Shown here piece by piece: positions 19,320-50,017 of a stretch of 64,000 nucleotides of DNA. The stretch's first letter is position 1, and each line of letters begins with the position of its first letter. The stretch comes from Pedosphaera sp. GTDB taxonomy: Bacteria > Verrucomicrobiota > Verrucomicrobiia > Limisphaerales > Pedosphaeraceae. Where the stretch lies: positions 1-64,000 of the forward strand of contig JAQGPA010000080.1 of NCBI GenBank assembly GCA_028293325.1. Reading direction: 5' to 3'. Position numbers and translations under genes: made by a program. A model generated the notes under the pieces. It did not search any database, was not told the origin of the DNA, and saw only the letters and a program-made list of their open reading frames with translations.

Positions 19320-20600
19320 GTGAGGAATTCCCTTAATACACGGGTCCTGCACATCCCCCGTCGCTTTGTCGCCGAAGAATGGGGCGGCACCGAAACCGTT
19401 CTGCTGGAAATCTCCCGTGATCAGCAACGCACCGGCTGGCAACCCGAGATATTCACCTCGCTTGCCCTTTCCAAACAAAGGAACGAAACCTTCGCCGGCA
19501 TCCCCGTCCGACGCTTTCCGTACTGCTACCCCTACTTTGGCCTTTCCGCCGCTGCCAAGCTTGAACTCGACAAAAAAGGCGGCAACCTGATCTCTCCCTT
19601 CCTTTTTACCGCTCTCCTGCGCGCCAAAGATGTGCGGCTCTTCCACGTGCATACCATGGCCCGCATGGGTGGGCACGTCCGCACCGCCGCCCGCTTGCGC
19701 GGCAAACCGTATGTCCTCTCGCTCCACGGCGGCGTTTACAATGCACCACCCGCCGAACTCGCCACCATGCTCCGCCCAACTCAGGGCAAATTCGAGTGGG
19801 GCAAATTTCTCGGCGCCCTTCTCGGTGCGCGACGTATGTTGCCCGACGCCGATTACATCATCTGCGTCGGTCAGGCGGAACTCGATGAAACCAGCAAAAA
19901 AATTTCTCACGACCGTATCGCCTATCTCCCTAACGGAGTGGACCCCGTCAAATTTGCCCATGGCGATGGCGCAGCTTTCCGGCGTCAGCACGGCATTCCC
20001 GCCTCCGCCTTTCTCGTCCTGAATATCAGCCGCATCGACGTGCAGAAAAACCAGTTCACCTTATTGGAAGCCTTTGCTCGCCTGCATTCCCGCCATCCCG
20101 ACTCTTTCCTCGCCCTGATGGGACCGGAGACATCGGCTGATTACGCCGATAGATTGCGCAAATACATTCGCGACCATAATCTGGACACCGCCGTCAAACT
20201 TCTGCCGGGTGTTCGCACCGACAGCCCCAACTTGGTCAACGCCTACCATGCTTGCGATGTTTTTGCATTGCCTTCCCTGCACGAACCGTTTGGAATCGTG
20301 GTTCTGGAAGCTTGGAGCGCCCGGAAACCGGTCATAGCCAGTCAGGTAGGCGGATTGCGGACGTTTATTAAATCCGGCGAGACTGGATTGTTCTTTGACC
20401 CAACGGCGTCCGACGCCGTGGAAAAATTGGCGGGCCAGTTGGAAGCCCTTATGGCACAACCATTGCTGAGAGAACGACTTGGCGAGGCAGGCCTCAAAGA
20501 AGTTCACGCTGCTTACACCTGGTCGGTAATCGGCCAGAAATTGGAATTGATCTATCAGGCCGCCGAACGCCATGTGTTCGACCGCCGCGGAAAAAAATAA
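19320..20600 (+). CDS. GT4-family glycosyltransferase
   Basis: 426 residues from a GTG at 19320. GT-B fold: N-terminal acceptor half with FVAEEWGGTETVLLEI and YVLSLHGGVYN; the nucleotide-sugar half holds LNISRIDVQKNQFTLLEAFA, FALPSLHEPFGIVVLEAWSA with the E-x7-E motif, and ASQVGGLRTFI. It transfers a sugar from a nucleotide donor to a lipid-linked or other acceptor on the cytoplasmic side. First gene of an operon whose members overlap by a few bases (stop TAA overlaps ATG at 20600). Confidence 0.9.
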   Translation: MRNSLNTRVLHIPRRFVAEEWGGTETVLLEISRDQQRTGWQPEIFTSLALSKQRNETFAGIPVRRFPYCYPYFGLSAAAKLELDKKGGNLISPFLFTALLRAKDVRLFHVHTMARMGGHVRTAARLRGKPYVLSLHGGVYNAPPAELATMLRPTQGKFEWGKFLGALLGARRMLPDADYIICVGQAELDETSKKISHDRIAYLPNGVDPVKFAHGDGAAFRRQHGIPASAFLVLNISRIDVQKNQFTLLEAFARLHSRHPDSFLALMGPETSADYADRLRKYIRDHNLDTAVKLLPGVRTDSPNLVNAYHACDVFALPSLHEPFGIVVLEAWSARKPVIASQVGGLRTFIKSGETGLFFDPTASDAVEKLAGQLEALMAQPLLRERLGEAGLKEVHAAYTWSVIGQKLELIYQAAERHVFDRRGKK

Positions 20601-22195
20601 TGACTTCAGACGATTTAAGACGGAAAATTTGGCTCAACTCGATTTCCAACTACCTGCGCATGGCTTTGCGCATGGTGTTGGGATTGTTGACCATTCGGCT
20701 GCTCTTCCCCAAGGACGTCGGGCCGATACATGTCTCCGGCTTGACCTATGAGGAATTCGGTTTTTATTCCGTGCTCTGGAGCATCTTCGGGTATGGCATC
20801 CTGATGGATTTCGGGTTTGGTCTCGCTGCCCAGAAGAAAGTCGCGGAGCTCTCCGTCCATAAGGATTGGAAACAACTCAGCCAGGTATTAAGCACGATCT
20901 TCTTTTTTTACTTTATCAGCGCCGCCATCATTATCATCGGGGTGCTGTTAACCTCACATCAGCTTATCGGAACTATCCGCATTGAGCATCCGGAAAACCG
21001 CGAAGTATTTCGTCAAATTCTCGTCATGTTTCTCTGCTTTGTCGGCCTGTCGTTTCCCATCGGAATTTCCATTGAAATTCTTTATGGTCAGCAACGCATT
21101 GCCCTGGCCAACAATCTCGCCTCGGTCGGTGCCCTTGTTAATTTTGGCTTGATCGTCGCCGCGATGCATTATCATTGGGAACTAAAGACCATCTTTATCT
21201 TCTCTCTCACTTGCGCATTGGTTCCCAGCCTCATCGGCGGTTACATGGGTCTGCGCTCCATGCCGGAGGTCAAACTCCACCCCCGCTATTTTTCCATTAG
21301 CGTGTTGAAGGAGACCATGCGTTTCTCCGTCTACGCCTACGTCGGCATTGTTACCACGCTTATCATGTCTCAGACGGACCGCTTGATCATTGCCACCACG
21401 CTTGCGACCGCTGCCGTCACCATCTACCAGCTCGGCGCCAAGGTGGCCGATATCTTTTACTCCTTTACCTTGCAATTGCCGGAAACCATTTCCCCCGCCG
21501 CCGCCCATTTGCACGCCCAGGGTGATCGCACCGCCCTCCAGCGTTTATTGGTCGATGGCACCCGTTTTAATGTCATGGTCGCCACTCCGCTCTACCTGCT
21601 CTGCGCGCTATTCATGGAAGGCCTGATGAGCATCCTGAACAAGGGCCAGGCCATCAGCCCGGACACCTTCTGGGCCGGTCAGGCGCTCATGTTATGGGGT
21701 TACACCACCATCATCACCCATAGCATTTCCAAGAAAATTTTCATGATGTGCGGCCATGAAAAGAAACTGATTCAACTCTCCATCGTTGAAGCTTTATTGA
21801 ACCTCGTCCTCAGCCTGGGCCTCGTGCTTTATTTCCGGAACGTCGTCTGCGTCGCCGTCGGTTCGCTGATTCCCTCACTGATTATCGGCTGGTTTTATCT
21901 CTGGCCTTGGGCGGCGAAGGATGCCGGGGTAAATCGCCGGGGACTCGCCCGCAAGGTCTTGCTGCAAAATTGGGCCGCCGGGGTGCCGTTGCTCATCTTT
22001 GGTTTGATCTGCCGCTCGGTTCCCGCCCTGGACTTTCGCACCAACACTCTCGTGTTTGTCCTGGAAGGTGCGCTGGCTTGTGTGGTCGCCGCCATTAGCT
22101 TGTGGCGCTGGGGATTGAGTGACCAGGAACGGGAAAAGGTCGGCGGCATCATCGGGCGGCGATTGCAGCGCTTTGCCCGCAAAAAACTCGCATGA
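20600..22195 (+). CDS. Polysaccharide flippase, Wzx/RfbX-like
   Basis: 531 residues with about 12-14 membrane segments. The N-terminus KIWLNSISNYLRMALRMVLG and the strongly hydrophobic body with AYVGIVTTLIMSQTDRLIIA fit the MOP (oligosaccharidyl-lipid flippase) superfamily. It would move the lipid-linked repeat unit across the inner membrane. The start codon overlaps the stop of the preceding GT4 gene by one base, and the last four bases overlap the following GT2 gene, so coupled translation is likely. A polymerase (Wzy) was not recognised in the window. Confidence 0.87.
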   Translation: MTSDDLRRKIWLNSISNYLRMALRMVLGLLTIRLLFPKDVGPIHVSGLTYEEFGFYSVLWSIFGYGILMDFGFGLAAQKKVAELSVHKDWKQLSQVLSTIFFFYFISAAIIIIGVLLTSHQLIGTIRIEHPENREVFRQILVMFLCFVGLSFPIGISIEILYGQQRIALANNLASVGALVNFGLIVAAMHYHWELKTIFIFSLTCALVPSLIGGYMGLRSMPEVKLHPRYFSISVLKETMRFSVYAYVGIVTTLIMSQTDRLIIATTLATAAVTIYQLGAKVADIFYSFTLQLPETISPAAAHLHAQGDRTALQRLLVDGTRFNVMVATPLYLLCALFMEGLMSILNKGQAISPDTFWAGQALMLWGYTTIITHSISKKIFMMCGHEKKLIQLSIVEALLNLVLSLGLVLYFRNVVCVAVGSLIPSLIIGWFYLWPWAAKDAGVNRRGLARKVLLQNWAAGVPLLIFGLICRSVPALDFRTNTLVFVLEGALACVVAAISLWRWGLSDQEREKVGGIIGRRLQRFARKKLA

Positions 22196-23058
22196 CCGAG
22201 CCGCTGGTCACCATTATCATGCGCTCCTTCAACGAAGGCTGGGCGCTCCGTGACACCCTCCCGGCGGTCCAGTCCCAGAATTATAAAAATTGGGAACTCA
22301 TCGTGATCGACTCCGGCTCCACCGACGGTTCCGTGGACCTCATCCAAAAGGCCCAACCCAGCCATTTCATCCAGATTAAATCTCAGGACTACAATCCCAG
22401 CCGCGTCATGAATCACGGCATGCAACTCGCCCGCTCGGAATTTGGGATTTTTCTCAATGCCGATGCCACGCCGCAGAGTGACAACTGGCTCCGTCCGCTC
22501 GTCGAGGGATTACAGGATCCCAAAACGGCCGCCGTATTCGGCAAACAAATCCCACGCCCCAATTGTGAAGCGGTCTTTGCCTGTGATTACGAACGTTGCT
22601 TCGGGCCCAACCGCGAGTCGGTCAAGTGGGATCACTATTTCAGCATGGTGAGCAGTGGACTCCGCAAGGATATCTGGGCCAAACGCGGCTTCCTGGAAAA
22701 AATGCAATACTCCGAGGATGATGAATACACTCGCTGGTGTGTCGCCCAGGGATATCGTGTCGTCTATTGCCCGGAAACGGTTGTGATGCATTCACACAAT
22801 TATACGCCGCAGCAGGCCTACAAACGGAGTTTCGGCGAGGCGAAGGCGCTCGCCGCTGTTTGGACGGGAGCGCCGTCTGAATTTAGCTGGTTCCGAACCG
22901 TCATGCTGGGGTGGCTGGGCGACCTGCGCCGCGATTTCCGTTTCTGCGCCGGGCGCAATCGCCTTGGGGAATTTCCCCATGCCGCGCGAATTCGCTGGCA
23001 GCAGCGCCTCGCCAAGCTTGCCGGATTCCGGGCGGGCTGGGCATTCTATCGGCAATGA
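22192..23058 (+). CDS. GT2-family glycosyltransferase
   Basis: 288 residues. GT-A fold typical of GT2: VTIIMRSFNEGWALRDTL and LIVIDSGSTDGSVDLI bind the nucleotide sugar, GIFLNADATPQSDNWLRPL gives the DxD-like metal site, and SEDDEYTRWCVAQGYRVVY holds the catalytic base region (ED). The rhamnosyltransferase-like C-terminus is basic. It works with the GT4 and flippase before it. It overlaps both neighbours by four bases. Confidence 0.9.
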   Translation: MTEPLVTIIMRSFNEGWALRDTLPAVQSQNYKNWELIVIDSGSTDGSVDLIQKAQPSHFIQIKSQDYNPSRVMNHGMQLARSEFGIFLNADATPQSDNWLRPLVEGLQDPKTAAVFGKQIPRPNCEAVFACDYERCFGPNRESVKWDHYFSMVSSGLRKDIWAKRGFLEKMQYSEDDEYTRWCVAQGYRVVYCPETVVMHSHNYTPQQAYKRSFGEAKALAAVWTGAPSEFSWFRTVMLGWLGDLRRDFRFCAGRNRLGEFPHAARIRWQQRLAKLAGFRAGWAFYRQ

Positions 23059-24260
23059 TCCATCTCCTCCGCCACCCAACTGGTGCGGCGGAGAAAAATG
23101 ATTCTAACATTGTGAGCGCACGATTTACCGTGGATGGCAGCGATGCCCTCGAAAGCCATCTGGCGCAAACCTGCCAGCATGTCCTGGCGGCTGTGCAGTC
23201 GCTCATTCCCTCATCATCCCTGGAAGCCGTCGTGCTCGGCGGCGGCTATGGCCGCGGTCAGGGAGGCGTTTTCAAATCAGTATCCGGCGACCGCCCCTAC
23301 AACGATCTGGAATTCTACGTTTTCGCCCGCGGCAATGTGCTGCTCAATGAACGTCACCACCGCGGTCCATTGCATGAGTTGGGCGACCGCCTTTCGCCAG
23401 CTGCGGGCTTGCATGTCGAATTCAAAGTCTATTCCCGTGATAAATTGCGCCAGGCTCCGGTCTCGATGTTCACCTATGACCTCGCGGCCGGCCACCGCAT
23501 CATTTTGGGCGACGAAAATATTTTTCAGGGTTGCGAACACCATCTGCGCGCCGATCAAATACCGCTGCACGAAGCCACCCGCCTCTTATTCAATCGCTGC
23601 TCCGGCCTGTTGCTCGCCAAAGACTTTCTCCGCGCCGAATCTCTGACCGCGGATCAAACCGACTTTATTGTCCGCAATCTTGCGAAGGCCCAACTGGCTC
23701 TCGGCGATGCCCTGCTGACCGTACGCGGCCAATACCACTGGAGTTGCCGCGAGCGTCACGACCGCTTGAACCAGCTTGCCGATACGGCAGAATTACCCAT
23801 GCTCCGGGAGGTGCGCCGACATCATGCTGCCGGCGTTGAATTCAAATTACACCCCCGCTTCATCCCCTCCACTAAATCGGAACTCGAGTCGCGGCATGCG
23901 GAAATTACCGAACTCGGTCGCCAACTTTGGCTCTGGCTGGAAAGTCTTCGCTTCCATCGTTCGTTTACCTCCGCCCGCGATTACGCGCTCGCTTCGTTGT
24001 CCAAATGCCCGGAAACGTCAGCCCTGCGTAATGCCGCCCTCAACCTTAAAACTTTCGGACCAGCCGCCATTTTCGGAAGCCAGGCCTTCCGCTATCCACG
24101 CGAACGGCTGCTCAATGCCCTGAGCTTGCTGCTCTGGGATGAGCATGCGCTTCGTGACCCCGCCGCCCGTCATTGCCTGAAAAATAATTTGCGCGTTCCA
24201 CAACCCGCCTGGTCGGATCTGCTCCGGGCGTATCAGCACATCTGGCAAAGCTATGGTTGA
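23055..24260 (+). CDS. Nucleotidyltransferase-like protein in the polysaccharide operon
   Basis: 401 residues from the ATG at 23055, which overlaps the previous stop (ATGA). VVLGGGYGRGQGGV followed about 15 residues later by NDLEFYVF fits the minimal nucleotidyltransferase pattern hG[GS]...[DE]h[DE]h of the polymerase-beta superfamily. A further conserved acidic strand may be HVEFKVYS. The C-terminal half is helical (LTADQTDFIVRNLAKAQLAL, TELGRQLWLWLESLRFHRSF), like substrate-binding domains of such enzymes. Possible roles are activation of a sugar or lipid, or modification of an acceptor. No close named relative was recognised. Its place between a GT2 and a PPTase suggests a part in glycan assembly or regulation. 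Confidence 0.6.
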   Translation: MIHLLRHPTGAAEKNDSNIVSARFTVDGSDALESHLAQTCQHVLAAVQSLIPSSSLEAVVLGGGYGRGQGGVFKSVSGDRPYNDLEFYVFARGNVLLNERHHRGPLHELGDRLSPAAGLHVEFKVYSRDKLRQAPVSMFTYDLAAGHRIILGDENIFQGCEHHLRADQIPLHEATRLLFNRCSGLLLAKDFLRAESLTADQTDFIVRNLAKAQLALGDALLTVRGQYHWSCRERHDRLNQLADTAELPMLREVRRHHAAGVEFKLHPRFIPSTKSELESRHAEITELGRQLWLWLESLRFHRSFTSARDYALASLSKCPETSALRNAALNLKTFGPAAIFGSQAFRYPRERLLNALSLLLWDEHALRDPAARHCLKNNLRVPQPAWSDLLRAYQHIWQSYG

Positions 24261-24274
24261 AGCATCTTGAAACC

Positions 24275-25145: not shown

Positions 25146-25212
25146 TCGATTTTAGTCCGATTTGAAATACTATCATTCGCGGTACATCAGAAACGGTGCC
25201 TTTTGGTCAAAT

Positions 25213-28200: not shown

Positions 28201-30483
28201 ATTTGGGGTGATGCCGATGGATTCCATTTCGTTTACCAACCGCTGAATGGAGATGGTGCCATCGTGGCTCATGTACTTAACATTGAAGTAACAGATGGGT
28301 GGGCCAAGGCCGGCGTCATGATCCGGGAAACGCTCACCGATAATTCAACTCACGCCTTTATGGCCCTTTCCGCTGTGAATGGCACCAGTTTCCAACATCG
28401 CGCAACTACCGGAGCGAACAGCGACTCCACCGGCGGCCCCGGCGTCACCGCTCCCTACTGGGTCAAACTCGTGCGCACCGGTGATCTTTTCACCGGCTAC
28501 ATCTCCGCCGATGGCCTGAATTGGACGGTCGTGGACAGCATTACCATTCCGATGACCAACAATGTTTACATTGGACTGGCCCTTACCGCCCATGACAATT
28601 CCCAGCTAAACACCTCCACCGTGGACAGCCTCCAATTTGTGCAGTCGATTACGTCTCAACCGTTGGACCAGACGGTTTACCAGGGCAACAATGCCACCTT
28701 TAATGTCGTCGCGATTGGCGCACCCTTGGATTATCAATGGCAATTCAACGGCACCAATATTCCCGGCGCAAACCTCAGCAGCTATACGCGTAATAATGTG
28801 CAACCGGCGGATGCCGGATATTATTCCGTTACTGTCACCAACCTTGCAGCAATGTTGATCAGTTCCAATGCTCTATTAACAGTGAATCCGCTTCCTGCAA
28901 TTACCACGCAACCCCAAAATCAAACCGTGAACCAGGGCAATAGCGCGAACTTCAGTGCCGCCGCCATCGGTGCTCCACCATTGAGTTATTTGTGGCTGTT
29001 CAATGGCAATCCCATCTTGTACGCAACCAACAGCACATACACCCGCACCAATGTGCAATCCTCTGACGCCGGAACTTATTCGCTCATCGTGACGAACCCC
29101 GCCGGCGGTGTGACCAGTTCCAACGCCTTGTTGTCGGTTAACCTTCCACCTTCAATTACGACCCCACCGACAAATCAGTCGGTTGTCGCCGGCACGGATG
29201 TTGCCTTCACTGTCGTTGCCACCGGAACCGCTCCTTTGGTTTATCAGTGGCAGCTCAACGGCATCACTATTAGTGGCGCGACCAACGCCACGTTAAGTCG
29301 CACCAACGTCCACGTTGCCGATGCCGGCACTTACTCCGTCGTGATTACCAACATGGCCGGCACCAATGCCAGCGCGGCAACCTTGACGGTCAACACATCG
29401 CCAACCTTGTCTCCCATAGCTGATCAAATCATCAATGAAGGAGTTGCCCTGGTGATTACCAACATCGCCACTGATCCGGACATCCCGGCGAATACGCTTA
29501 CTTTCAGCCTGGGCACCAACGCGCCAACCGGAGCCACCATTAACCCGACCAATGGCCTCTTTAGCTGGACGCCAGCTGAAGCCCAAGCCCCAGGCACAAA
29601 CGTCATCACTGTGATCGTGACTGACAACGGCATCCCAAACCTAAGCGACTCCAAGTCCTTCACCGTCGTGGTTAATGAAGTGAACCGGCCCCCGTTGCTT
29701 TCACCGATTGCTAATTACACCATCAACGAACAAACTTCTCTCCTCATCACCAACCTCGCCACTGATCCGGACATCCCGGCGAACGCACTTACCTTCAGCC
29801 TCGATACCAATGCACCAGCCGGAGCCACCATTAATTCCACCAACGGCCTGTTTAGCTGGACTCCCACCGAAGCCCAAGGCCCCAGCACCAATCTCATCAC
29901 CATCATCGTGACCGACAACGGCACACCCAACCTCAGCGACTCCAAGAGCTTTAACGTGGTGGTCAATGAAGTGAACCAACCCCCGGTTTTGGCACCCATC
30001 GCTGACCAAATCATTCATGCGGGCAGCACTCTAGTGATCACCAATACTGCCACCGACCCCGATCTACCGGCCAATCTGCTAACTTATAGCTTGGACATCA
30101 ACGCACCTGCAGGAACCTCCATTAATCCCACGAATGGCGTCTTCGTCTGGACCGCGCCAGACAGCCAGGCAGGACTCACCAATTCCATAACCGTGCGCGT
30201 AACTGATAATGGTTTGCCCAACCTGAGCGATTCCAAGACCTTTAACATCAGCGTGGTTTCCAAGCCGGTCATACAGAGCACTATCGTTTCCGGCAATGCC
30301 GTGCAGTTTACCTGGAGTGCGCTCCCTGGCAAAACCTACCGCGTCCAATATAAGTCCAACCTGAACGCCCCGGTTTGGACTGATCTGCCGGGCGACCTCC
30401 TCTCTTCCGGCAATTTTGTCACCGCCACGGACACGATTGGCGTGGATACCCAACGCTTCTATCGGGTTGTCCTCGTCCCTTAG
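25213..30483 (+). CDS. Giant secreted PQQ-type sugar dehydrogenase with cytochrome c and Ig-like domains
   Basis: 1756 residues from ATG 25213, chosen because it starts a signal peptide (MRGVTSIFFFSLLLCTGTFL); an upstream TTG would add 17 residues. About 40-480: glucose/sorbosone-dehydrogenase beta-propeller (LLGMAFHPEFG, LWHNGGGMFFGSDGFLYLS, AIGFRSPHRMTFD, DVGDSSREEVDI, GNYQWGYQEG). About 490-790: domain with two heme sites, CLVCH near 619 and CSQCH near 701. Ig-like domains at about 795-960, a beta-sandwich like DUF1349 at about 960-1140 (ADGFHFVYQPL, GWAKAGVMIRETL), three more Ig-like at 1145-1395, three cadherin-like repeats at 1396-1690, and a terminal domain ending QRFYRVVLVP. It likely oxidises sugars outside the cell and passes electrons to its own hemes. 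Very long; read-through without frameshift. Confidence 0.85.
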   Translation: MRGVTSIFFFSLLLCTGTFLASAAAPYGLVTRSPISSFLNSNLPPVSSDGSGDWMTVPAFPNLTFEDPTFLTAVPRTNLLCVLGRQGFIWIFQNDPNTTNKSIFLNLTNQNQGYDDCGLLGMAFHPEFGLPGSTNRGYVYVYYQYSPNPINPGPDQRPTWTIPTYNRLSRFTVPDGSLVADPNSELVLINQFDQHLWHNGGGMFFGSDGFLYLSNGDEGGSDDFYGNTQRLDGGLFSGVLRIDVDQNPARSHPIRRQPLSGAPPPAGWPGTYSTNYYIPNDNPFVNPDGSVLEEFFAIGFRSPHRMTFDSQSGRIWLGDVGDSSREEVDIIVKGGNYQWGYQEGISYPGPNAKPDNLIGIDTSPIYDYEHFTTNGTPTGNSCIIGGYVYRGTEHAADLGDQYIFGDNYSGRIWALTYNSTNPPVVTYLCNMPPGLLYDGGLSSFGIDQNNELYMCRMGSDGGIWKLARSGTPVAPPPTLLSQIGAFANVSTLSPANGLIPYNVNSPLWSDAAVKSRWIALPTNTQIGFAPTGEWDFPIGTVFVKHFELGVDDTDPSVRRRLETRVLVHGTNGNYYGLTYKWRSDNSDADLLTNGLSEDIVIATATGFRTQTWYYPSRQDCLVCHNPSANYVLGVKTRQLNGNATYPGTGITDNQLRTWNHLGMFNSNLDETTIPTFASLVHVTNTAASLDERVRSYIDSNCSQCHRPNGSAQANFDARYDTQLGNQRIINGIVGNSLGIPGAAVIVPSSPSKSIMHLRMNTVGVYQMPPLARNTIDTAAVATLESWINSLVPPSLTLQPLSQALNPGDTASFSAAAIGNAPLSYQWQFNGSNIIGATNNSLTVTNLQSSNEGNYTIVVSGVTGTVTSSNAVLTVNGPPLINTQPLSQSVTLGANVTFSVVSSGTEPLTYQWQFNSANIPGATTSTFNLPQAQLTNAGTYSVIVSNLISIALSSNATLVVNEPSSTNWFDQDVGFTGFPGSVSFTNGTFTVQASGNDIWGDADGFHFVYQPLNGDGAIVAHVLNIEVTDGWAKAGVMIRETLTDNSTHAFMALSAVNGTSFQHRATTGANSDSTGGPGVTAPYWVKLVRTGDLFTGYISADGLNWTVVDSITIPMTNNVYIGLALTAHDNSQLNTSTVDSLQFVQSITSQPLDQTVYQGNNATFNVVAIGAPLDYQWQFNGTNIPGANLSSYTRNNVQPADAGYYSVTVTNLAAMLISSNALLTVNPLPAITTQPQNQTVNQGNSANFSAAAIGAPPLSYLWLFNGNPILYATNSTYTRTNVQSSDAGTYSLIVTNPAGGVTSSNALLSVNLPPSITTPPTNQSVVAGTDVAFTVVATGTAPLVYQWQLNGITISGATNATLSRTNVHVADAGTYSVVITNMAGTNASAATLTVNTSPTLSPIADQIINEGVALVITNIATDPDIPANTLTFSLGTNAPTGATINPTNGLFSWTPAEAQAPGTNVITVIVTDNGIPNLSDSKSFTVVVNEVNRPPLLSPIANYTINEQTSLLITNLATDPDIPANALTFSLDTNAPAGATINSTNGLFSWTPTEAQGPSTNLITIIVTDNGTPNLSDSKSFNVVVNEVNQPPVLAPIADQIIHAGSTLVITNTATDPDLPANLLTYSLDINAPAGTSINPTNGVFVWTAPDSQAGLTNSITVRVTDNGLPNLSDSKTFNISVVSKPVIQSTIVSGNAVQFTWSALPGKTYRVQYKSNLNAPVWTDLPGDLLSSGNFVTATDTIGVDTQRFYRVVLVP
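29401..30265 (+). repeat. Three tandem cadherin-like repeat units within the 25213 gene
   Basis: Units of about 290 bp begin near 29401, 29692 and 29980. Units 1 and 2 share long near-identical DNA such as CACTGATCCGGACATCCCGG, so the duplication is fairly recent; unit 3 is more diverged. Each unit encodes SPIADQI-type start, ATDPDIPANTLTFSL, and VTDNGIPNLSDSKSF. Confidence 0.75.
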
Positions 30484-30540: not shown

Positions 30541-31479
30541 ATGCACGATAATTTTACTGTAGTAACCAATTGCAACCAGGATTATTTCTGGGGTGCTTAC
30601 TTGCTGGCGGCGTCGTTGCGCTTTGAAAACATCCAGGCGCCGGTACATGTGCTGGCCATGGGTATCGACGCACAGAGCCGGCAACTCCTGGAACAATTCT
30701 CCGGTGTGCGCGTCTTCGACCCCGATAAGTCCAACCCGCGCAACCCCACCAATCTCAAACCGCAGGCGCTCCTGACTGCGGACACCGAATATATCGGCTG
30801 GTTTGATTCGGATTGTGTCGTCATCGGCGACATCACCAAATATTGGATCCCGGCCAACGACTCCTTCCAGTCGCGCTTCCGTAGCGGCGAGGACACAGCG
30901 ATCGTTTACCGCACCAAGTTTGCGCCCGGGGAAAAAGCCTTTGGCATCCCCAAAGGCGTGCTGGATGTTTGGCGCAAGGACGTCGGTGAAAACGAAGCCA
31001 ACACCATTAGTGCCACCTGCACTGCGGACAACTTTGTCTTTCATCGTCGCCATTTGAACTTTATCAAGCGCTGGGACGAGCAGTTGAAACGAGTAATCCC
31101 CGCGGAAGATCAGGGCGTGGTGAACCATTCCAGTTTTGCCTACCGCCAAACCGATGAAGAAGTGATGAATTCGGTCATCGCGTTTTCCCGCTCTGCTCCG
31201 CCCATTGACGGCCAATACCTCCTCGATAAAGATCCCAAGTCCTTTGTTCTTCATTGCGGCATGCTCCCCAAACCTTGGCAGGGTTGGCAGTACCGGTTTC
31301 TGCCCTATTACGACCATATCGTCGGCATTGTCGAGTGGGCGCAAAAAAAAGGTTACCAAACGCCTCCCCTGCCGCGCTCGCTCCAAAGACGTTATAAGCT
31401 CGCTTCCCGTCTTGCCGCCATGGCCGGCAGCAGCTATTCCTACAGCAAGGGCGTCGCCCGGCATCTCTTGAAAGTCTGA
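30541..31479 (+). CDS. Putative glycosyltransferase, GT-A fold
   Basis: 312 residues, no signal peptide. FTVVTNCNQDYFWGAYLLAA at the start is the GT8-like nucleotide-binding beginning, YIGWFDSDCVVIGDI carries a DxD metal motif, and DQGVVNHSSFAYR and FVLHCGMLPKPWQGW resemble the late acceptor/His motif of such enzymes. The extreme C-terminus is basic and may bind the membrane. It lies 39 bp before the wecG-STAS gene and probably shares its transcript. The exact sugar cannot be predicted. Confidence 0.7.
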   Translation: MHDNFTVVTNCNQDYFWGAYLLAASLRFENIQAPVHVLAMGIDAQSRQLLEQFSGVRVFDPDKSNPRNPTNLKPQALLTADTEYIGWFDSDCVVIGDITKYWIPANDSFQSRFRSGEDTAIVYRTKFAPGEKAFGIPKGVLDVWRKDVGENEANTISATCTADNFVFHRRHLNFIKRWDEQLKRVIPAEDQGVVNHSSFAYRQTDEEVMNSVIAFSRSAPPIDGQYLLDKDPKSFVLHCGMLPKPWQGWQYRFLPYYDHIVGIVEWAQKKGYQTPPLPRSLQRRYKLASRLAAMAGSSYSYSKGVARHLLKV

Positions 31480-31518
31480 TTGCGGGATTTTGGGATTAGT
31501 CCCATAGTAAGTGGCCGA

Positions 31519-33009
31519 ATGAATTCTCCCGCTGAAACCAAAACTCATTTGTTGTATGCGGCGAACCCTCCCATCGCCATTCTGGGAGTTCCCTTCGATA
31601 ATGTAACCACCTCCGAAGCCGTCGCCTTGGTGGAGCAAATGGTCGCTTCCCGGCGCCCGCACTACATGGTCACGGCCAATGTCGATTTCCTCGTCCAGGC
31701 GCAGGAGGACGTTGAATTGCGCCGCATTTTGTTCGACGCGCATTTGGTCCTCTGTGACGGCACCCCGTTGGTCTGGGCCTCGCGTCTGCTGGGCAATCCC
31801 CTGCCCGAGCGCGTCGCCGGCGCTGACCTCGTCCCGTTGCTCGTTCGTATTGCTGCGGCCAGAAATTATCGCTTGTTCTTCCTCGGCGGCACGCCGGAGT
31901 CCACTTCCCAGGCCATCGCCCGGATCAAAGCCGAACATCCAAATTTGTCCACTGACGGTTATTCTCCTCCTTTCAACAAGCTGCTTGAAATGGACCACGA
32001 AGAAATCAAGCGGCGCATCGCCGAGGCCAAGCCCGATTTTCTGTTCGTCTCCTTCGGTTGTCCCAAGCAGGAAAAGTGGATCAACATGCATTATCAATCC
32101 CTCGGCGTGCCCGTCTCGGCCGGGGTCGGTGCCACCATTGATTTCCTCGCGGGACAAGTCAAACGCGCCCCCACTTGGATGCACCGGACTGGCGCTGAAT
32201 GGCTTTTCCGTTTGGCCCAGGAACCGCGTCGCTTGCTCCGCCGTTATATCAAAGACCTCTGGGTATTCGGCTGGACCATACTGGCGCAATGGTGGCAATT
32301 GCAATTTCGCCGCAACCGCTCCACCGCCACCCGTGCCGTCAGCACTCCCGTGCAGGCAGCGGATACCTGGCAATGGATCAAACTCCCCGAACGCCTGGAC
32401 ATGACCGCCGTCCGGGACGACGTCCTGCTCCTCGACCAGGTCCTGGCCGATGGACGCCACTGTCTGCTTGAAATGGCCAACGTCCAATTCATCGATAGCA
32501 CCGGCATCGGTTTGCTGATACGCCTGCAAAAAAAAATCCGCGTCACCGAACGGCAATTGATATTGCTCGCTCCCAGTCCCGTCGTGCTGCGTGCCTTGGC
32601 CCTCATGCATCTTCAGGATTTCTTCGCCTCCGCTGGCGACCTTGCCGCGGCGCAACAATTAATCGCCGCCCGCGCCGTGGAGCAAAATGTCTCGCTCCGC
32701 ACCAGCTCCACCCAAGCTGCGGCATCCTTGGCCTGGCAGGGCGAAATCATCGCTGCCAATGCCGAAGAAGTTTGGCGGCTTACCGAAGCGCAACTCGCCT
32801 CCGCAACTGTTGCCGCTTCCGGACGAATGGTGATTGACCTTTCCCAGGTGCGGTTTATGGACAGCACCGGCCTGGGCATCATGGTTCGCGCCCGCAAGCT
32901 CGCACAGCGCCAGGGCATAAAATTGGCTTTCACCGGCGTCCAACCCGCCGTCCAAAATGTGCTGCGCCTGGCCCGGCTTGAAGCGTTTCTCCTGGGAGAA
33001 CAGGCATGA
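31519..33009 (+). CDS. WecG/TagA-family glycosyltransferase fused to two STAS domains
   Basis: 496 residues from ATG 31519; an upstream TTG at 31480 is possible. Residues about 15-255 are a GT26 enzyme: HYMVTANVDFLVQAQ, LCDGTPLVWASRLLG with the catalytic Asp, AGADLVPLLV, YRLFFLGGTPEST, FVSFGCPKQEKWI and VGATIDFLAGQVKRAP. GT26 enzymes add a ManNAc-type sugar to a lipid-linked precursor. After a basic amphipathic stretch, two STAS-type domains follow, with VQFIDSTGIGLLIRLQKK near 322 and VRFMDSTGLGIMVRARK near 444. Both keep the D-S-T-G site that is phosphorylated in anti-anti-sigma factors. The fusion suggests control of the enzyme by a phospho-switch or by partner binding. The stop overlaps the next ATG. 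Confidence 0.88.
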   Translation: MNSPAETKTHLLYAANPPIAILGVPFDNVTTSEAVALVEQMVASRRPHYMVTANVDFLVQAQEDVELRRILFDAHLVLCDGTPLVWASRLLGNPLPERVAGADLVPLLVRIAAARNYRLFFLGGTPESTSQAIARIKAEHPNLSTDGYSPPFNKLLEMDHEEIKRRIAEAKPDFLFVSFGCPKQEKWINMHYQSLGVPVSAGVGATIDFLAGQVKRAPTWMHRTGAEWLFRLAQEPRRLLRRYIKDLWVFGWTILAQWWQLQFRRNRSTATRAVSTPVQAADTWQWIKLPERLDMTAVRDDVLLLDQVLADGRHCLLEMANVQFIDSTGIGLLIRLQKKIRVTERQLILLAPSPVVLRALALMHLQDFFASAGDLAAAQQLIAARAVEQNVSLRTSSTQAAASLAWQGEIIAANAEEVWRLTEAQLASATVAASGRMVIDLSQVRFMDSTGLGIMVRARKLAQRQGIKLAFTGVQPAVQNVLRLARLEAFLLGEQA

Positions 33010-34145
33010 AGATTGGTCTTTCCAGTTCCGTCATTCAACGCGGCAAGACGGGCATTGCACAGTACTTTTTCGCCCTGCTGCGCGCCTTCCGGCCCTATAC
33101 CGACCGGCATCAGTTCAAAATATTTGTCCTCGAGGAAGACGTTCCGCTCTTCGACTTTGTCTGCCGTCAAATGGAAATCATCCCGGTGCCGGAACGGTTT
33201 CGCCCCCCCGTAAAAAACATTCTCTGGCATCAAACCACCCTGCCCCGGCTGGCGCGCCAGCATCAACTGGACGTGCTCCACGTCCCGAGTTATCGCCGTC
33301 TGCTTTGGCCTCATCCCTGCGCACTCGTCGCCACCATTCATGATCTCGCCCCCTTTCACGTCGCCAACAAATACGATTGGTCGCGGATGCTTTACGGCCG
33401 CGTCATTGTGCGTCGGCTCGCCCACCGGCAGGATCAGGTCATTGCCATCAGCAAAAATACCGCGCACGACATTAAGACTTTCTTTGGTCTGCCGGACAAC
33501 CGCATCACGGTCATCCACAATGGCCTCGAACACGACCGTTTCTTCCCCGGCTCTCGCGATACCGCCCGCGCCCAGGTTGTGGAACGCCATGGCTTGCGTC
33601 AGCCTTTCTTTCTCTACATCGCCCGCTTGGAGCATCCTGCCAAAAACCATGTGCGCTTGATCTCCGCGTTCAACGAATATAAAAAATCCACTCAATCGCC
33701 CTGGCAACTCGTGCTCGGCGGCAGCGACTGGAACGGCGCGGAATTCATTCACGCCGCCATCAAGCAATCCCCGTACGCCGCGGACATTCGTTCCCTCGGC
33801 TTTGTGGCGAACACAGACTTGCCCGCTCTCTATCAGGCTGCCGATGTCTTTGTTTACCCTTCCCTTTACGAAGGCTTTGGTATGCCGCCCATCGAAGCCA
33901 TGGCTTGCGGTTGTCCCGTCATCTGCTCCACCCGCGGCTCGCTCGGTGAAGTCGTCGGCAACGCCGCCGCCATAGTGGAACCCGAAGACATCAATTCCAT
34001 TACGCAACAGCTCCTGGCCGTGGCCGGTGATGCCGCGCTGCGGGAACGCCTGCGCGCTGCCGGGCTCATCCAGGCGATGAATTTCAGTTGGGAAAAAACC
34101 GCAGCCGAAACTCTCAAGCTCTACCATCGAGCCGCAACCGCCTAA
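33006..34145 (+). CDS. GT4-family glycosyltransferase (mannosyltransferase-like)
   Basis: 379 residues, GT-B fold. MKIGLSSSVIQRGKTGIAQY starts the first Rossmann half; ATIHDLAPFHV, AISKNTAHDIKTFFGL and VIHNGLEHDRFFPG are typical of mannosyl/glucosyl GT4 enzymes. The second half has YIARLEHPAKNHVRLISAF, FVYPSLYEGFGMPPIEAMAC with E-x7-E, and CSTRGSLGEVVGNAA. It overlaps the wecG-STAS stop by four bases, so the two are translated together. It would add a further sugar after GT26. Confidence 0.92.
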   Translation: MKIGLSSSVIQRGKTGIAQYFFALLRAFRPYTDRHQFKIFVLEEDVPLFDFVCRQMEIIPVPERFRPPVKNILWHQTTLPRLARQHQLDVLHVPSYRRLLWPHPCALVATIHDLAPFHVANKYDWSRMLYGRVIVRRLAHRQDQVIAISKNTAHDIKTFFGLPDNRITVIHNGLEHDRFFPGSRDTARAQVVERHGLRQPFFLYIARLEHPAKNHVRLISAFNEYKKSTQSPWQLVLGGSDWNGAEFIHAAIKQSPYAADIRSLGFVANTDLPALYQAADVFVYPSLYEGFGMPPIEAMACGCPVICSTRGSLGEVVGNAAAIVEPEDINSITQQLLAVAGDAALRERLRAAGLIQAMNFSWEKTAAETLKLYHRAATA

Positions 34146-44876: not shown

Positions 44877-45710
44877 ATGGATTTGCTTCCATATTGGAAC
44901 TTGCGCGAGCGCCCTTTTGAGACCACTTGGGATACGCGTTTCTTTTTCCAAAGCCGTGACCATGATGAGGCCTTGGATCGCCTCACTTTTTTGGTCGAGG
45001 AGCAAACCATGCTTTTTGGAATGCTCACTGGCGAAATCGGCTGCGGCAAGACCCTCACCCGGTCGGTCTTCACCGAGCGACTCGAGTCGCGCAAATTCCG
45101 CGTCGTCACCCAGGAAAACTCCGCGTTCACCTTTAACGATCTCCTCGCTGGCGTTTTACAGAGCTTGGACGGTAATCCCGAGGACGCCGGCAACACCAAA
45201 TACGCCCGTTACGAGCGCTTGCGCCGCTGCATGGAGCGGGTTCACGCCGAACATCGCCATCTGGTCCTGATTTTTGATGAAGCCCAGGAAATGTCGCCGC
45301 AAACCCTGAACGAACTCAAGCTCCTCACCAATCTGAACGGTGCCGGCAAAAACTTCCTGACCATCATTCTCGTCGGCCAGCCGGAATTGCGCGCGCTCGT
45401 CTCCGGATTGCCGGCCATCAATCAGCGCATCAGCCTTCGCTTCCATCTTAACTCCTTGAGCATGGAAGATGCCGCGAATTATCTCCGCCATCGCCTCAAA
45501 GTCGCCGGTCACGTCACCGGTGAACTTTTTCCCGGCGACGCCGTCGAGCGCGCCTTTCAGGCCTCACTCGGAACGCCCCGTGAATTGAACCGTATCGCCA
45601 AACTTTCCCTCGAATACGCCTGGCTCAAAGGTTTCCCGCAGGTAACCTTCGAAGCTGTGGACGCCATCGTGCGCGACCTCCAGCGCCATCAGAATTTGCC
45701 GCAATCATGA
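44877..45710 (+). CDS. ExeA-like AAA ATPase of an exopolysaccharide locus
   Basis: 277 residues. MDLLPYWNLRERPFETTWDT is the typical ExeA/XrtA-associated ATPase start; Walker A GEIGCGKTLT near 52-61, Walker B LVLIFDEAQEMSPQTLNELK near 127-146, and ILVGQPELRALVSG sensor region. In exosortase-linked (EPS) clusters such an ATPase precedes the chain-length and export genes, as here, where its stop overlaps the next ATG. It probably drives or regulates export complex assembly. No exosortase gene is in the window. Confidence 0.88.
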   Translation: MDLLPYWNLRERPFETTWDTRFFFQSRDHDEALDRLTFLVEEQTMLFGMLTGEIGCGKTLTRSVFTERLESRKFRVVTQENSAFTFNDLLAGVLQSLDGNPEDAGNTKYARYERLRRCMERVHAEHRHLVLIFDEAQEMSPQTLNELKLLTNLNGAGKNFLTIILVGQPELRALVSGLPAINQRISLRFHLNSLSMEDAANYLRHRLKVAGHVTGELFPGDAVERAFQASLGTPRELNRIAKLSLEYAWLKGFPQVTFEAVDAIVRDLQRHQNLPQS

Positions 45711-47911
45711 GTGACGAAGCCGAATTAAGCATCAGCGAACTCCGTCGGAAACGCGCCCAAGCCGGCGGCGGCACACAAGCCAGCCCCCCTTCGCCGACGC
45801 CGGAAACAACTTCCGATGCCACCTTCATTGAAACCACGCCCCGGCCGGCCACCACTATTCAGTATTCCGCGCCCGCCCAACCGCCGCCGCCGGTTGATGA
45901 TGAGGAAAAATTGGATCTTCCGTTCGATCCCTGGCGTCTGCCGGGAGCCTTGCTCAAGCGTTGGTACTGGCTGGTGCTCGCTGCGTGCGTATTCGCATTG
46001 CTCGGCGGTATCGCCGGCTTCTGGCGCGCCAAATACTTCATCCATGTCAACATGACCTTGCGCGACCTCAGCACCGGCTTCGTCGCCAACCAGCAGGAAG
46101 GTGATGCCTACAAACCACCCGAGTTGAGCAGCCAATCACGCGTCAATTTCCTGACCTCTTCCGAATTGTTGACTTACGTCAGCACCAACGCGGTCCCGCC
46201 CGTCACCGAGCGGGGCATCCTCGCCAACCTGAACGTCACTCAGGAAAAAAATTCCGAGAATATCACCATCACCATTGCCGGAAAAAATCCGCCAGCCCTC
46301 GTCGCGCTCGCCAATACCTTCACCAGTGCCGCCGTAAAACAAAGTCGCGAGGCCCAAAGGGAAAATCCCAATCACGTTTATACCAACTTTACCGCGAAAA
46401 TCTCGGAAAACGAACGTCTGCAAGCCGAGTTGAACGAAAAACTGGCTAATTTCCGCACCAATAGCTCCGGCATCAGCGACCCCGTCGCCGCCATTCAACG
46501 CTACGATAAGGAGCGGACCGACATGCAGATCAAACTGGATCTGGCCAGGGGTGAACGCGATCTCCTGGATCAAAAAAGTAAATTAGTTCTCCAGGAACCC
46601 ATCCAAAAGAGCTTGCAGGAGGCAGAAGCTCGTCTCGCCGCCTTGCTCGTCAATGACCGCGAAGATCATCCTGACGTCAAGCGCGCGCACGCTGAAATTG
46701 CCAACCTGAACCAACAATTGGCCAACTTGGAAACCAACAGCCTGGCCGTCTCTTCCAACGCCCTGCTCTCTTCCCGGTCCGCCCAGTCAGAACTTAGGAA
46801 AAAGACCCTCGACCTCGAGATCCAGCAACTTCAGGATCAGGCTGACCTTCTCCAGAAAAAACTCGATGTGCTCTACGAACACGTCGATCCTTACAGCCGC
46901 GTCAAAAGCGAACTGGACTACCTGGAAAAATTCCACAAAACCCTGACCAGCCGCAAATTTGAAGCCCAACAGTACCGCGATAATGCCGAGGGCTATTACA
47001 TTCCCCCGGCCGCCCCCGCCATACTCAAGGATGTGGACACCCGCACCCGCTACGTTAAAGCCGCCACCTTCGGCTTCGCCGGCGGATTCCTCGGCTTCGC
47101 TGGTGCATTGGCGCTCGTCCTTCTCACCGAGATTATCGATCCGCGCTTGAAGACCGCCGCCGATGTGCGCCGCGTCACCCAACTCCCCGTCCTCGCCACC
47201 CTCGGCAATCTGGATAAACTCGACGACCACGCGCGCAAAGCCTGGGCGTTCCGCACCTGGACCATTCTCTCCGGCACTCTCACCGCATCCGCCAACCGCG
47301 GCACCGTCTGCGGCTTCATCTCCTGCATGCATGGCGAGGGCCGCACCAAATGGGTCAGCCTCTTGGTGGAAGCCGCCAGGGAACGCGGATTCGAAGTCAC
47401 CAAACTGGACTTCGGCCATGTCTCCGAAGGTCAGGCGGATCGCCCAACCACAGATTCAAACACCAAAGACGACGCCTCCCAATCTTCCACCGACCCGGAA
47501 ACCAAAACCGCCCCAGCTACAGACGCATCGGACGAAGCCGCCAGCCAGCGATCGTCCGCTCTGTCGGTTCACGAGAAAAATCAAAAACTCGCACAGGCCA
47601 AAGTCGCCTCCGTCATCCATATCCAATTGCCCGGTCTCGTCTGGAATCTCGAACGCCGCATCCAATTCCAAACTGAGCTCGATAACTGGCGCGCCATTTC
47701 CAGTGCCGTCATCCTCATCGATCTGCCCCCCGCATCCGTGCCGGAAGCCATCCTCTTGGCGGAAAATCTTCCCCAGGTCATCTGGCTCGTGGATAGCGGC
47801 AAACCCCACGCCCGCGAAACCCGGCTCCATTTGGAAACCTTGCGTCATGCTCGTTGCAAACTAGTCGGCGCCGTGTTAAACCATGAACCCGAACCTCTGA
47901 TCAAATTATGA
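45707..47911 (+). CDS. Wzc-like chain-length protein with a degenerate tyrosine-kinase domain
   Basis: 734 residues. After a Pro-rich N-terminus, TM1 lies near 86-106 (WYWLVLAACVFALLGGIAGF) and TM2 near 455-475. Between them is the periplasmic Wzz domain with coiled coils (about 220-420). The cytoplasmic part aligns with BY-kinases, AFRTWTILSGTL and CGFISCMHGEGRTKWVSLLV near 530-555, but the Walker A Lys is Arg-Thr-Lys shifted (GEGRTK instead of GEGKS/T) and Walker A' is VTKLDFG. A Walker-B-like AVILIDLPPAS remains near 667. An Asp/Ser/Thr-rich insert lies in between, and the Tyr cluster at the C-terminus is absent. It likely controls chain length without kinase activity. Confidence 0.85.
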   Translation: MSDEAELSISELRRKRAQAGGGTQASPPSPTPETTSDATFIETTPRPATTIQYSAPAQPPPPVDDEEKLDLPFDPWRLPGALLKRWYWLVLAACVFALLGGIAGFWRAKYFIHVNMTLRDLSTGFVANQQEGDAYKPPELSSQSRVNFLTSSELLTYVSTNAVPPVTERGILANLNVTQEKNSENITITIAGKNPPALVALANTFTSAAVKQSREAQRENPNHVYTNFTAKISENERLQAELNEKLANFRTNSSGISDPVAAIQRYDKERTDMQIKLDLARGERDLLDQKSKLVLQEPIQKSLQEAEARLAALLVNDREDHPDVKRAHAEIANLNQQLANLETNSLAVSSNALLSSRSAQSELRKKTLDLEIQQLQDQADLLQKKLDVLYEHVDPYSRVKSELDYLEKFHKTLTSRKFEAQQYRDNAEGYYIPPAAPAILKDVDTRTRYVKAATFGFAGGFLGFAGALALVLLTEIIDPRLKTAADVRRVTQLPVLATLGNLDKLDDHARKAWAFRTWTILSGTLTASANRGTVCGFISCMHGEGRTKWVSLLVEAARERGFEVTKLDFGHVSEGQADRPTTDSNTKDDASQSSTDPETKTAPATDASDEAASQRSSALSVHEKNQKLAQAKVASVIHIQLPGLVWNLERRIQFQTELDNWRAISSAVILIDLPPASVPEAILLAENLPQVIWLVDSGKPHARETRLHLETLRHARCKLVGAVLNHEPEPLIKL

Positions 47912-48963
47912 AAAAACGCTCCCTGCTCTGGCTGGCGCCATTCTTTCTCCTCCTTGGGCTCGCCTGCCAAACCGCTCCGGCCGCCGACTCACCCGCTCCG
48001 CCCGCGGCTTCTCCCGCCACCGGGAGCGACACCAATCTCTCCCTCTCCGCCACGGCCTCCGGCAAACGCGCTGCCTGGCAGCAACACCTCACCCTCGGTC
48101 CGGGCGATACTCTGAACCTGGCTCTCTACGTCAATGACACCCTCCAACAAGCCCGCGAAAACGTCAGCATCGGCCCGGATGGCCGCCTCTCTTATCTCCA
48201 GGCGCAGGACATCATGGCCGCCGGCCTGACGGTGGACGAATTGCGCGCAAAAATGGATGAAAGCCTCGGCAAATTTTACAATACCCCTCACACGATTATC
48301 AGCCCCGTCGCCATTCGCAGTAAAAAATATTTCGTCCTCGGCTCCGTTGTGAACAAAGGCGTCTTTACCTTTGACCGTCCGCTGACCGTGATCGAAGCCA
48401 TCGCCCGCGCCGGCGGCCTCGAAACCGGCGTCTTCGAACGTAACACTGTCGAACTCGCCGACCTCTCCCGCAGCTTTCTGGTTCGTCAGGGCCAGCGCGT
48501 TCCCCTCGATTTCGAAAAACTTTTCCAACAAGGCGATCTCTCCCAGAACATCGCGTTGGAACCAGATGACTATCTCTACTTCGCTTCCGCCAGCGCCAAT
48601 GAAGTTTATGTCGTCGGCGAAGTGCTCGGGCCTGGCATCACCCCATACACGCCCACCTCCACCGCGGTCGGCGCCATTGCCTCGCGCGGCGGCTTTGCTC
48701 CCAAAGCTTATAAACGCAAGGTGCTCGTCATTCGCGGCTCTCTGACCCATCCCGAAACTTTTGTGGTGGATACCGCGGATGTTCTCGCCGGCAAATCCAT
48801 CGACTTCCGCCTCAAACCCCGCGATATCGTATTCGTCTCCACCCGGCCATGGGCCAGGGCGGAAGACTTGTTGGATACCAGCACCCGCGCCTTTATCGAG
48901 GCTCTCATCGTGACTTATACCGGTTCCAAAGTCGGTCCGTTCATCAGCCCCGTCATTCACTAA
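47908..48963 (+). CDS. Polysaccharide export protein, Wza/SLBB family (copy 1)
   Basis: 351 residues with N-terminal export signal MKKRSLLWLAPFFLLLGLAC, possibly a lipoprotein. LGPGDTLNLALYVNDTL begins the poly-export domain, KKYFVLGSVVNKGVFTFDRP and NEVYVVGEVLGPGITPYTPT are two SLBB-type repeats, and LKPRDIVFVSTRPW ends the second. The protein would form the outer-membrane or periplasmic export channel. It overlaps the Wzc-like gene by four bases and is one base from copy 2. Confidence 0.9.
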   Translation: MKKRSLLWLAPFFLLLGLACQTAPAADSPAPPAASPATGSDTNLSLSATASGKRAAWQQHLTLGPGDTLNLALYVNDTLQQARENVSIGPDGRLSYLQAQDIMAAGLTVDELRAKMDESLGKFYNTPHTIISPVAIRSKKYFVLGSVVNKGVFTFDRPLTVIEAIARAGGLETGVFERNTVELADLSRSFLVRQGQRVPLDFEKLFQQGDLSQNIALEPDDYLYFASASANEVYVVGEVLGPGITPYTPTSTAVGAIASRGGFAPKAYKRKVLVIRGSLTHPETFVVDTADVLAGKSIDFRLKPRDIVFVSTRPWARAEDLLDTSTRAFIEALIVTYTGSKVGPFISPVIH

Positions 48964-48964
48964 T

Positions 48965-50017
48965 ATGAAAAAACTTGTCGCTTTATCTTGCTTGGGCTTG
49001 GCGCTGGTCCTCCTGGCGGGTTGCCAGACCGCACCCAAACCAACCTCTGCTGAATTTCCCGCGCGCACCAAGACTGTCGTCTTCACCAACACCCTCAGCT
49101 CCGAATTGCTCCAACCCTCCTCGGACTTGTTCGTGCTCGGCCCCGGCGACCAACTTGATATCGAAATCCGCGGTAACGCCACTTCCCGCTCCACCGCCAC
49201 CGTGGGTATCGACGGAAAAATCTATTACTCACTCCTGCCCGGCCTCGATGTCTGGGGCCTGAACCTGACTCAAGCCAAAGCGCGCCTGGAAGAGGAACTC
49301 ACCAAATATTTCAGCCAGCCCGAAGTCGGCATCTCCCTGAAGACCGTCGGCAGTAAATATGTCTGGCTCCTCGGCCGCCTTACCAGACCCGGAATTTACC
49401 CGATGGCCGGCTCCATGACCCTGCTCGAAGGCCTCGCGATCGCGGGCGGCACCGCCCGCTCCGCGTCCACCTTCACCACCCAGGACATGGGCGACCTCCG
49501 GCACAGCTTCGTCATGCGTCAGGGCAAACTCCTGCCCGTAAATTTTATTCGCCTCTTGCAGGAGGGCGACATGTCCCAAAATATTTATTTGAAGGCGGAC
49601 GACTTTGTTTACATCCCCTCCTCACTTTCCCAGGAAGTTTACGTGCTGGGCGCCGTCGCCGCTCCGCGCGCGGTCGCTTATGTCGATCAAATGACTGCGG
49701 TTTCTGCGGTCGCCGGTGCCGGCGGCCCCATTCTTAATGCCTATGTCTCCCATGTAGCCATCGTCCGCGGCTCCCTCAGCCAGCCCCAGCTCATTCAAGT
49801 CGATTATCAAGACATCATCACTGGCCGCGCTCCGGATGTGGCTCTGGAACCCGGCGACATTGTTTATGTCCCGCTCACTCCCTATCACATTCTCAGTGAT
49901 TACGCCGATCTCGTCGTCAATACCTTCGCGCGCTCCTGGAGTGCCAACATGGGCATTCGCGCCGTTTCCGGCACCACCACTGTCGGCGTCAGCGTGCCGG
50001 TCGGCATCGGCAGATAA
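48965..50017 (+). CDS. Polysaccharide export protein, Wza/SLBB family (copy 2)
   Basis: 350 residues; lipoprotein signal MKKLVALSCLGLALVLLAGC with a good lipobox. Same domain order as copy 1: LGPGDQLDIEIRGNATS, KYVWLLGRLTRPGIYPMAGS, QEVYVLGAVAAPRAVAYVDQ and LEPGDIVYVPLTPYH. The two share many aligned blocks (GDMSQNIYL / GDLSQNIAL, RQGKLLPVNF / RQGQRVPLDF), so they arose by tandem duplication. They may form a hetero-oligomeric pore. Last gene of the operon, ending at the 50061 terminator. Confidence 0.9.
   Translation: MKKLVALSCLGLALVLLAGCQTAPKPTSAEFPARTKTVVFTNTLSSELLQPSSDLFVLGPGDQLDIEIRGNATSRSTATVGIDGKIYYSLLPGLDVWGLNLTQAKARLEEELTKYFSQPEVGISLKTVGSKYVWLLGRLTRPGIYPMAGSMTLLEGLAIAGGTARSASTFTTQDMGDLRHSFVMRQGKLLPVNFIRLLQEGDMSQNIYLKADDFVYIPSSLSQEVYVLGAVAAPRAVAYVDQMTAVSAVAGAGGPILNAYVSHVAIVRGSLSQPQLIQVDYQDIITGRAPDVALEPGDIVYVPLTPYHILSDYADLVVNTFARSWSANMGIRAVSGTTTVGVSVPVGIGR

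Follow-up and report, generated by a model that had tools for sequence, protein, structure and literature searches.

A GT26 (WecG/TagA) glycosyltransferase fused to two STAS domains in Verrucomicrobiota: a candidate target of partner-switch control in polysaccharide assembly

RsbW-type kinases bind and phosphorylate STAS proteins, and PP2C phosphatases reverse the modification. GT26 glycosyltransferases work on already primed lipid-linked sugars. In Vibrio fischeri, the STAS protein SypA promotes polysaccharide-dependent biofilm formation, is controlled by SypE through Ser56 and acts below the level of transcription on an unknown target (PMC4517449, PMC10120452). HmpU/V/W of Nostoc punctiforme form a partner switch acting on motility and polysaccharide, likewise with an unknown STAS target (PMC8256260). 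How a free STAS protein such as SypA or HmpV controls polysaccharide output is an open question (PMC4517449, PMC10120452, PMC8256260). A STAS domain is also found at the N terminus of the Anabaena glycosyltransferase all4160, which is required for the heterocyst envelope polysaccharide as reported in PMC8256260 citing Wang et al. 2007. Among GT26 enzymes, TagA carries a C-terminal appendage, which completes the active site and contacts the membrane only when the enzyme is monomeric (PMC6493773).

Here we describe a protein in which a GT26 glycosyltransferase continues into two STAS domains. It is encoded in the window, the whole 64-kb stretch of DNA that was analyzed, which lies on contig C216 of a genome of 5.5 Mb in 218 contigs. 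GT26 enzymes known to us stop after the appendage, unlike this fusion.

Architecture and predicted fold of the fusion protein

The fusion gene and its parts have the following positions.

31519..33009, plus strand: GT26-STAS-STAS fusion gene, 496 aa, single open frame with ATG start
31561..32304, plus strand: GT26 domain including the C-terminal helical appendage (residues 15-262; PF03808 at 31738-32247; TagA match)
32344..32676, plus strand: STAS domain 1 (STAS1; residues ~276-386; PF01740 at 32431-32625, with secondary structure from the model)
32497..32499, plus strand: codon of Ser327, DSTG site of STAS1 (Ser in 76/84 distinct fusions)
32695..33006, plus strand: STAS domain 2 (STAS2; residues ~393-496; PF01740 at 32728-32988, and model)
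32863..32865, plus strand: codon of Ser449, DSTG site of STAS2 (Ser in 58/66 distinct fusions with STAS2)

The ATG (31519) lies 39 bases downstream of the stop of the previous gene; translation from an in-frame TTG at 31480 seems less probable. Pfam assigned residues 74-243 to PF03808 (Glyco_tran_WecG, E=1.8e-61, above cut-off). The profile search that an earlier note on this DNA had proposed also returned STAS similarity in the C-terminal part (PF01740, E=7e-28, split over two stretches), and NCBIfam concurred with TIGR00696 and TIGR00377. In PDB sequence searches, the first half matched TagA (7mpk, 3e-39; also 5wb4) and the STAS parts matched TM1442 and SpoIIAA. Structure prediction, likewise suggested at that stage, gave a confident AlphaFold2 model from an input of 40 related sequences (pLDDT 90.4, pTM 0.90). 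The top Foldseek match of this model was TagA (TM 0.93 over the solved part), while its STAS parts matched RsbV/SpoIIAA at TM 0.7-0.8 and also RsbS; MlaB and SLC26 proteins were retrieved as well.

The translation contains two intact DSTG sites in its C-terminal part, FIDSTGIG in STAS1 and FMDSTGLG in STAS2, as first read from the letters. In the model, S327 and S449 are each placed in the first turn of a STAS helix, as in SpoIIAA. A PF03808 domain and a TagA fold are thus combined with two STAS folds, each bearing a DSxG serine at the helix start. The protein is a GT26 family member carrying true STAS domains, and Pfam, NCBIfam, the PDB search and AlphaFold2/Foldseek all agree with the earlier assignment.

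Conservation, ancestry and genomic surroundings

A fusion or a recognizable piece of one was present in 18 of 58 relatives, and a contig scan of genomes recovered 80 loci, with Verrucomicrobiota showing mostly GT-STAS-STAS, several GT-STAS and some forms without STAS. The named relatives were Verrucomicrobiota, chiefly of subdivision 3 or Pedosphaera-like; distant fusions came from Chthonomonas-like, Desulfobacteraceae and Luteimonas records, some of which bear metagenome-assembled genome (MAG) names that may be unreliable. The count over genomes that the earlier note had called for places the architecture across Verrucomicrobiota and a few other phyla. Chance or an assembly artefact was rejected as its source, since dozens of independent assemblies contain the fusion. 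In a tree of the glycosyltransferase part, nearly all fusions fell into one clade, away from the unfused GT26 copies that these genomes also hold; the second GT26 gene of our genome (contig C11), which is without STAS, stood on a separate branch. With moderate clade support (0.80), a single origin can be regarded as likely, short of proof.

Architectures varied around this theme. STAS2 or both STAS domains were absent in several lineages (L093, L098, L095 and L116), and L111 and L122 carry GT4-GT26 fusions without STAS. A single 735-aa protein at L115:232-2436 comprises GT26, a degenerate STAS domain and GT4. The cultured Rubritalea marina DSM 17716, whose L102 locus includes a GT26-STAS gene, also joins STAS to a pathway protein of the hexapeptide (LbH) type (L102:5498-7030, minus strand), a second enzyme-STAS fusion, and a 381-aa protein adjoining the fusion at L213:7520-8662 ends in a C-terminal STAS domain.

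Residue conservation was assessed in 84 distinct fusions (<90% identity), 66 of them with STAS2. The earlier note had raised loss of the DSTG serine in relatives as a point against its reading; the serine was kept in ~90% of these fusions at STAS1 and ~88% at STAS2, and the preceding aspartate in 87% and 95%, respectively. A structural need at this end of the STAS helix may also explain why the DS pair is retained. Serine was largely lost in Armatimonadota, where the fusion itself is kept, and in L115. In a distant clade (most of L206-L219) the STAS1 site is often altered, and the fusion occurs without the HATPase_c_2-GAF-SpoIIE kinase described below. Glycosyltransferase positions T52, N54, D56, D80, R98, K183, R231, R238 and R242 were invariant across the 84 fusions, and the active-site columns as a whole, appendage arginines among them, were invariant or nearly so. 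Of these, T52, D80, R231, R238 and R242 correspond in a phmmer alignment to TagA Thr37, Asp65 and Arg214/221/224, and the roles of the active-site and C-terminal appendage arginine residues have been described for TagA (PMC6493773).

The fusion lies in a polysaccharide cluster; genes of the cluster and of the wider window are as follows.

19320..20600, plus strand: GT4 glycosyltransferase of the same polysaccharide cluster (Pfam)
20600..22195, plus strand: polysaccharide flippase (Polysacc_synt_3/MatE; Pfam)
22192..23058, plus strand: GT2 glycosyltransferase (Pfam)
22911..24260, plus strand: protein conserved in the cluster, no Pfam match; a homologue lies close to the fusion in 20 loci
30541..31479, plus strand: 312-aa protein directly upstream of the fusion, possible glycosyltransferase by eye (DxD-like motif)
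33006..34145, plus strand: GT4 glycosyltransferase (Pfam), with a 4-base overlap with the fusion stop; follows the fusion in many relatives (synteny)
44877..45710, plus strand: AAA_22 ATPase; in L085 a gene of like size and start follows fusion-GT4, and L084 has an AAA_22 gene of the same kind
47908..50017, plus strand: two SLBB/Poly_export outer-membrane export proteins (47908-48963 and 48965-50017; Pfam)

The series of GT4, flippase, GT2, conserved 449-aa protein, fusion and GT4 resembles the fusion half of L089. The true start of the 22911..24260 gene is probably near 23055, and relatives of its product carry a nucleotidyltransferase-like GGYGRGE motif. Within the same cluster, 24257-25024 encodes a HetI-like phosphopantetheinyl transferase, also found in L060 and L095, and 25162-30483 encodes a 1,773-aa protein with glucose/sorbosone dehydrogenase, SO2930-type diheme cytochrome and Ig domains. 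The fusion had been placed in an operon with two other glycosyltransferases. The downstream one is a clear GT4, and the 312-aa upstream candidate was dropped as a second glycosyltransferase after profile searches gave no support: Pfam returned nothing, and PDB sequence searches produced no meaningful hit at a threshold as loose as E=1.

A kinase-phosphatase cassette and its association with the fusion

A genome search for RsbW-type kinases, as the earlier note had recommended, located a HATPase_c_2-GAF-SpoIIE gene on contig C46. There, a STAS-only gene (DSCG), the gene for the 601-aa HATPase_c_2-GAF-SpoIIE protein and a receiver gene stand in a row. Before them come genes for a GT4, a uridine-kinase-like protein, a priming enzyme of the Bac_transf type and a hexapeptide protein, and after them one for a PF01663 protein. 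Kinase and phosphatase motifs appear intact by eye, and the 601-aa protein is, judged from its domains, an RsbW-type kinase joined to a PP2C phosphatase. The gene order of this cassette is repeated in many relatives. Within the 64-kb window no kinase was found; the nearest cassette is that on C46, and as it lies on another contig, the link to the fusion is drawn from relatives. Other HATPase_c_2 proteins are present elsewhere in the genome. The same genome also holds a second Bac_transf/hexapeptide/STAS cassette (L171, G000:C167, 13230-13793), in whose STAS protein Cys replaces the phospho-Ser (MDCSGLG); ~6 kb off, HATPase_c_2 and SpoIIE are encoded by separate small open reading frames.

In L085, one strand carries STAS, kinase-phosphatase, receiver, fusion, GT4 and more polysaccharide genes in succession, and L092, L089 and L102 each have cassette and fusion together in one cluster. 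Four fusion-linked cassettes were thus observed, against 0.16 expected under random placement. STAS-only companion genes also occur near the fusion in L100, L125, L127 and L215, directly upstream of it in L127. In the annotated cassette and fusion clusters we noticed no gene for a sigma factor. The earlier note had further considered recruitment to a stressosome-like complex; this found no support, as no RsbR/RsbS/RsbT-type genes appeared among the annotated neighbors of the fusion and the linked cassette is of the SypE/RsbW type.

Association was also evident across genomes. Among the 58 relatives, which represent the order, a full-length kinase-phosphatase was present in 15/18 fusion genomes versus 5/40 others (Fisher p=3e-7), and with one genome per family in 9/11 versus 4/39 (p=1.3e-5), tests that remove shared ancestry only in part. 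It was likewise found in 32 of the 42 decided genomes of the named fusion set, which was picked by closeness to the window protein. Over all fusions, the ratio of intact to altered STAS1 DS was 44:1 with the kinase and 12:15 without it (p=2e-7), an association that again contains some shared ancestry and drops to p=0.015 once the distant clade is left out. STAS-domain number showed no significant link to kinase presence (p=0.28). An even draw over the phylum gave the kinase (E<=1e-45) in 0/14 fusion genomes and 2/100 others; these 14 belong mostly to the distant clade with the altered STAS1 site, and the fusion-kinase association is therefore confined to nearer lineages. Genomes such as those of L070, L080 and G002, whose assemblies are incomplete, keep the fusion DS and lack the full kinase. 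L111 and L116 have the kinase although their GT26 is without STAS, which indicates that it has other partners. An RsbW-type kinase with PP2C is thus encoded in the genome (C46), and linkage and co-occurrence associate it with the STAS fusion.

Candidate mechanism and comparison with known systems

Control by a Ser/Thr kinase, as put forward in the earlier note, is the best-supported reading of these sequence data, which combine a conserved serine, a conserved cassette, linkage in some relatives and co-occurrence. That a polysaccharide assembly enzyme is under partner-switch control seems to us somewhat probable. Since STAS belongs to the glycosyltransferase polypeptide and we noticed no sigma factor in the annotated clusters, the simplest interpretation is a SypA/SypE-like switch whose target would be the glycosyltransferase itself. 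The fuller proposition is that this enzyme is the missing target, is switched by phosphorylation of serines in its own STAS domains without a sigma factor, and represents the usual control of one type of Verrucomicrobiota exopolysaccharide; we put its chances at about even.

In such a system, the GT26 part would, from its family, work at the inner membrane and attach a second sugar to the one already linked to undecaprenyl. The idea that polysaccharide initiation is controlled needs amending accordingly in its step: the enzyme acts on an already primed lipid-linked sugar, and the priming enzyme would be the Bac_transf protein of the cassette. The two STAS domains would offer docking and phosphorylation sites for the HATPase_c_2 half of the HATPase_c_2-GAF-SpoIIE protein, and the phosphate would be removed by its SpoIIE half or by another PP2C. 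The STAS-only cassette protein would compete for the HATPase_c_2 kinase, with signals entering through the GAF domain and the small receiver protein. The fused STAS domains would stand where a sigma factor (RsbVW) or a free effector (SypAE) would, so that switching would alter the activity, location or oligomeric state of the enzyme, the direction of control being presumed. The STAS domains come right after the appendage needed for a complete active site, which makes the monomer-dimer/membrane switch of TagA a possible lever; by analogy, a dimeric kinase seated on the STAS domains could plausibly draw the enzyme into an inactive state.

The STAS pair might instead be an unphosphorylated scaffold joining the glycosyltransferase to other STAS proteins, to the GT4 or to a membrane assembly, much as STAS is a structural part of the MlaB and SLC26 proteins retrieved by the fold search. 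The GT26-degenerate STAS-GT4 protein of L115, the STAS-hexapeptide protein of L102 and the Armatimonadota, with the fusion retained and the serine largely lost, would suit this role. It accounts poorly for a serine retained in ~90% of distinct fusions and for a kinase cassette both linked to and co-occurring with the fusion, and we consider it rather unlikely. Less likely still, and in our view improbable, is that the fused domains are anti-anti-sigma factors and the enzyme a sensor of precursor supply that binds an RsbW-type anti-sigma kinase and frees a sigma factor for transcription. Serine and fold are of the RsbV/SpoIIAA type and further HATPase_c_2 proteins exist in the genome, but the annotated clusters showed no sigma factor gene, and the cassette holds polysaccharide enzymes instead. 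A decayed or neutral fusion whose STAS domains have no regulatory role, as the STAS losses in L093, L098, L095 and L116 might suggest, is highly improbable given that most fusions, in several classes and beyond the phylum, keep both domains, both serines and the fold.

In the literature searched, we found no description of the WecG-STAS architecture or of its association with a kinase. As all4160, with the opposite domain order, is already on record, a STAS-glycosyltransferase is not wholly new in kind. The fusion is real and conserved, and the mechanism of partner-switch control proposed for it is well motivated by sequence evidence. A natural fusion of STAS with a glycosyltransferase for lipid-linked sugars, kept together with a kinase-phosphatase, suggests that the enzyme is the target and opens the question of how STAS proteins control polysaccharide output to tests with purified proteins. 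If true, the reach of partner switching would widen from transcription to an assembly enzyme under direct control, and would do so widely within Verrucomicrobiota.

The known systems each share part of this arrangement. TagA/TarA and WecG have the same fold, active-site residues and C-terminal appendage (PMC6493773). All4160 is likewise a STAS-glycosyltransferase protein in polysaccharide synthesis, but its STAS domain is at the N end and the account in PMC8256260 describes no kinase link. HmpU/V/W combine a partner switch with polysaccharide output, whereas no enzyme fusion is described for them (PMC8256260). RsbV/RsbW and SpoIIAA/SpoIIAB share the STAS fold with DSxG, the HATPase_c_2 kinase and the PP2C phosphatase; their output is a sigma factor, of which none was seen in the annotated clusters here. 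The resemblance to SypA/SypE comprises the STAS serine switch, an RsbW-type kinase and a PP2C at the ends of one protein, and polysaccharide as output; no sigma factor is a known target there (PMC4517449, PMC10120452). SypE, however, is a kinase-REC-phosphatase, whereas the cassette protein here has GAF in the middle and a separate receiver protein, and SypA is a free STAS protein, whereas here two STAS domains are fused to the glycosyltransferase.
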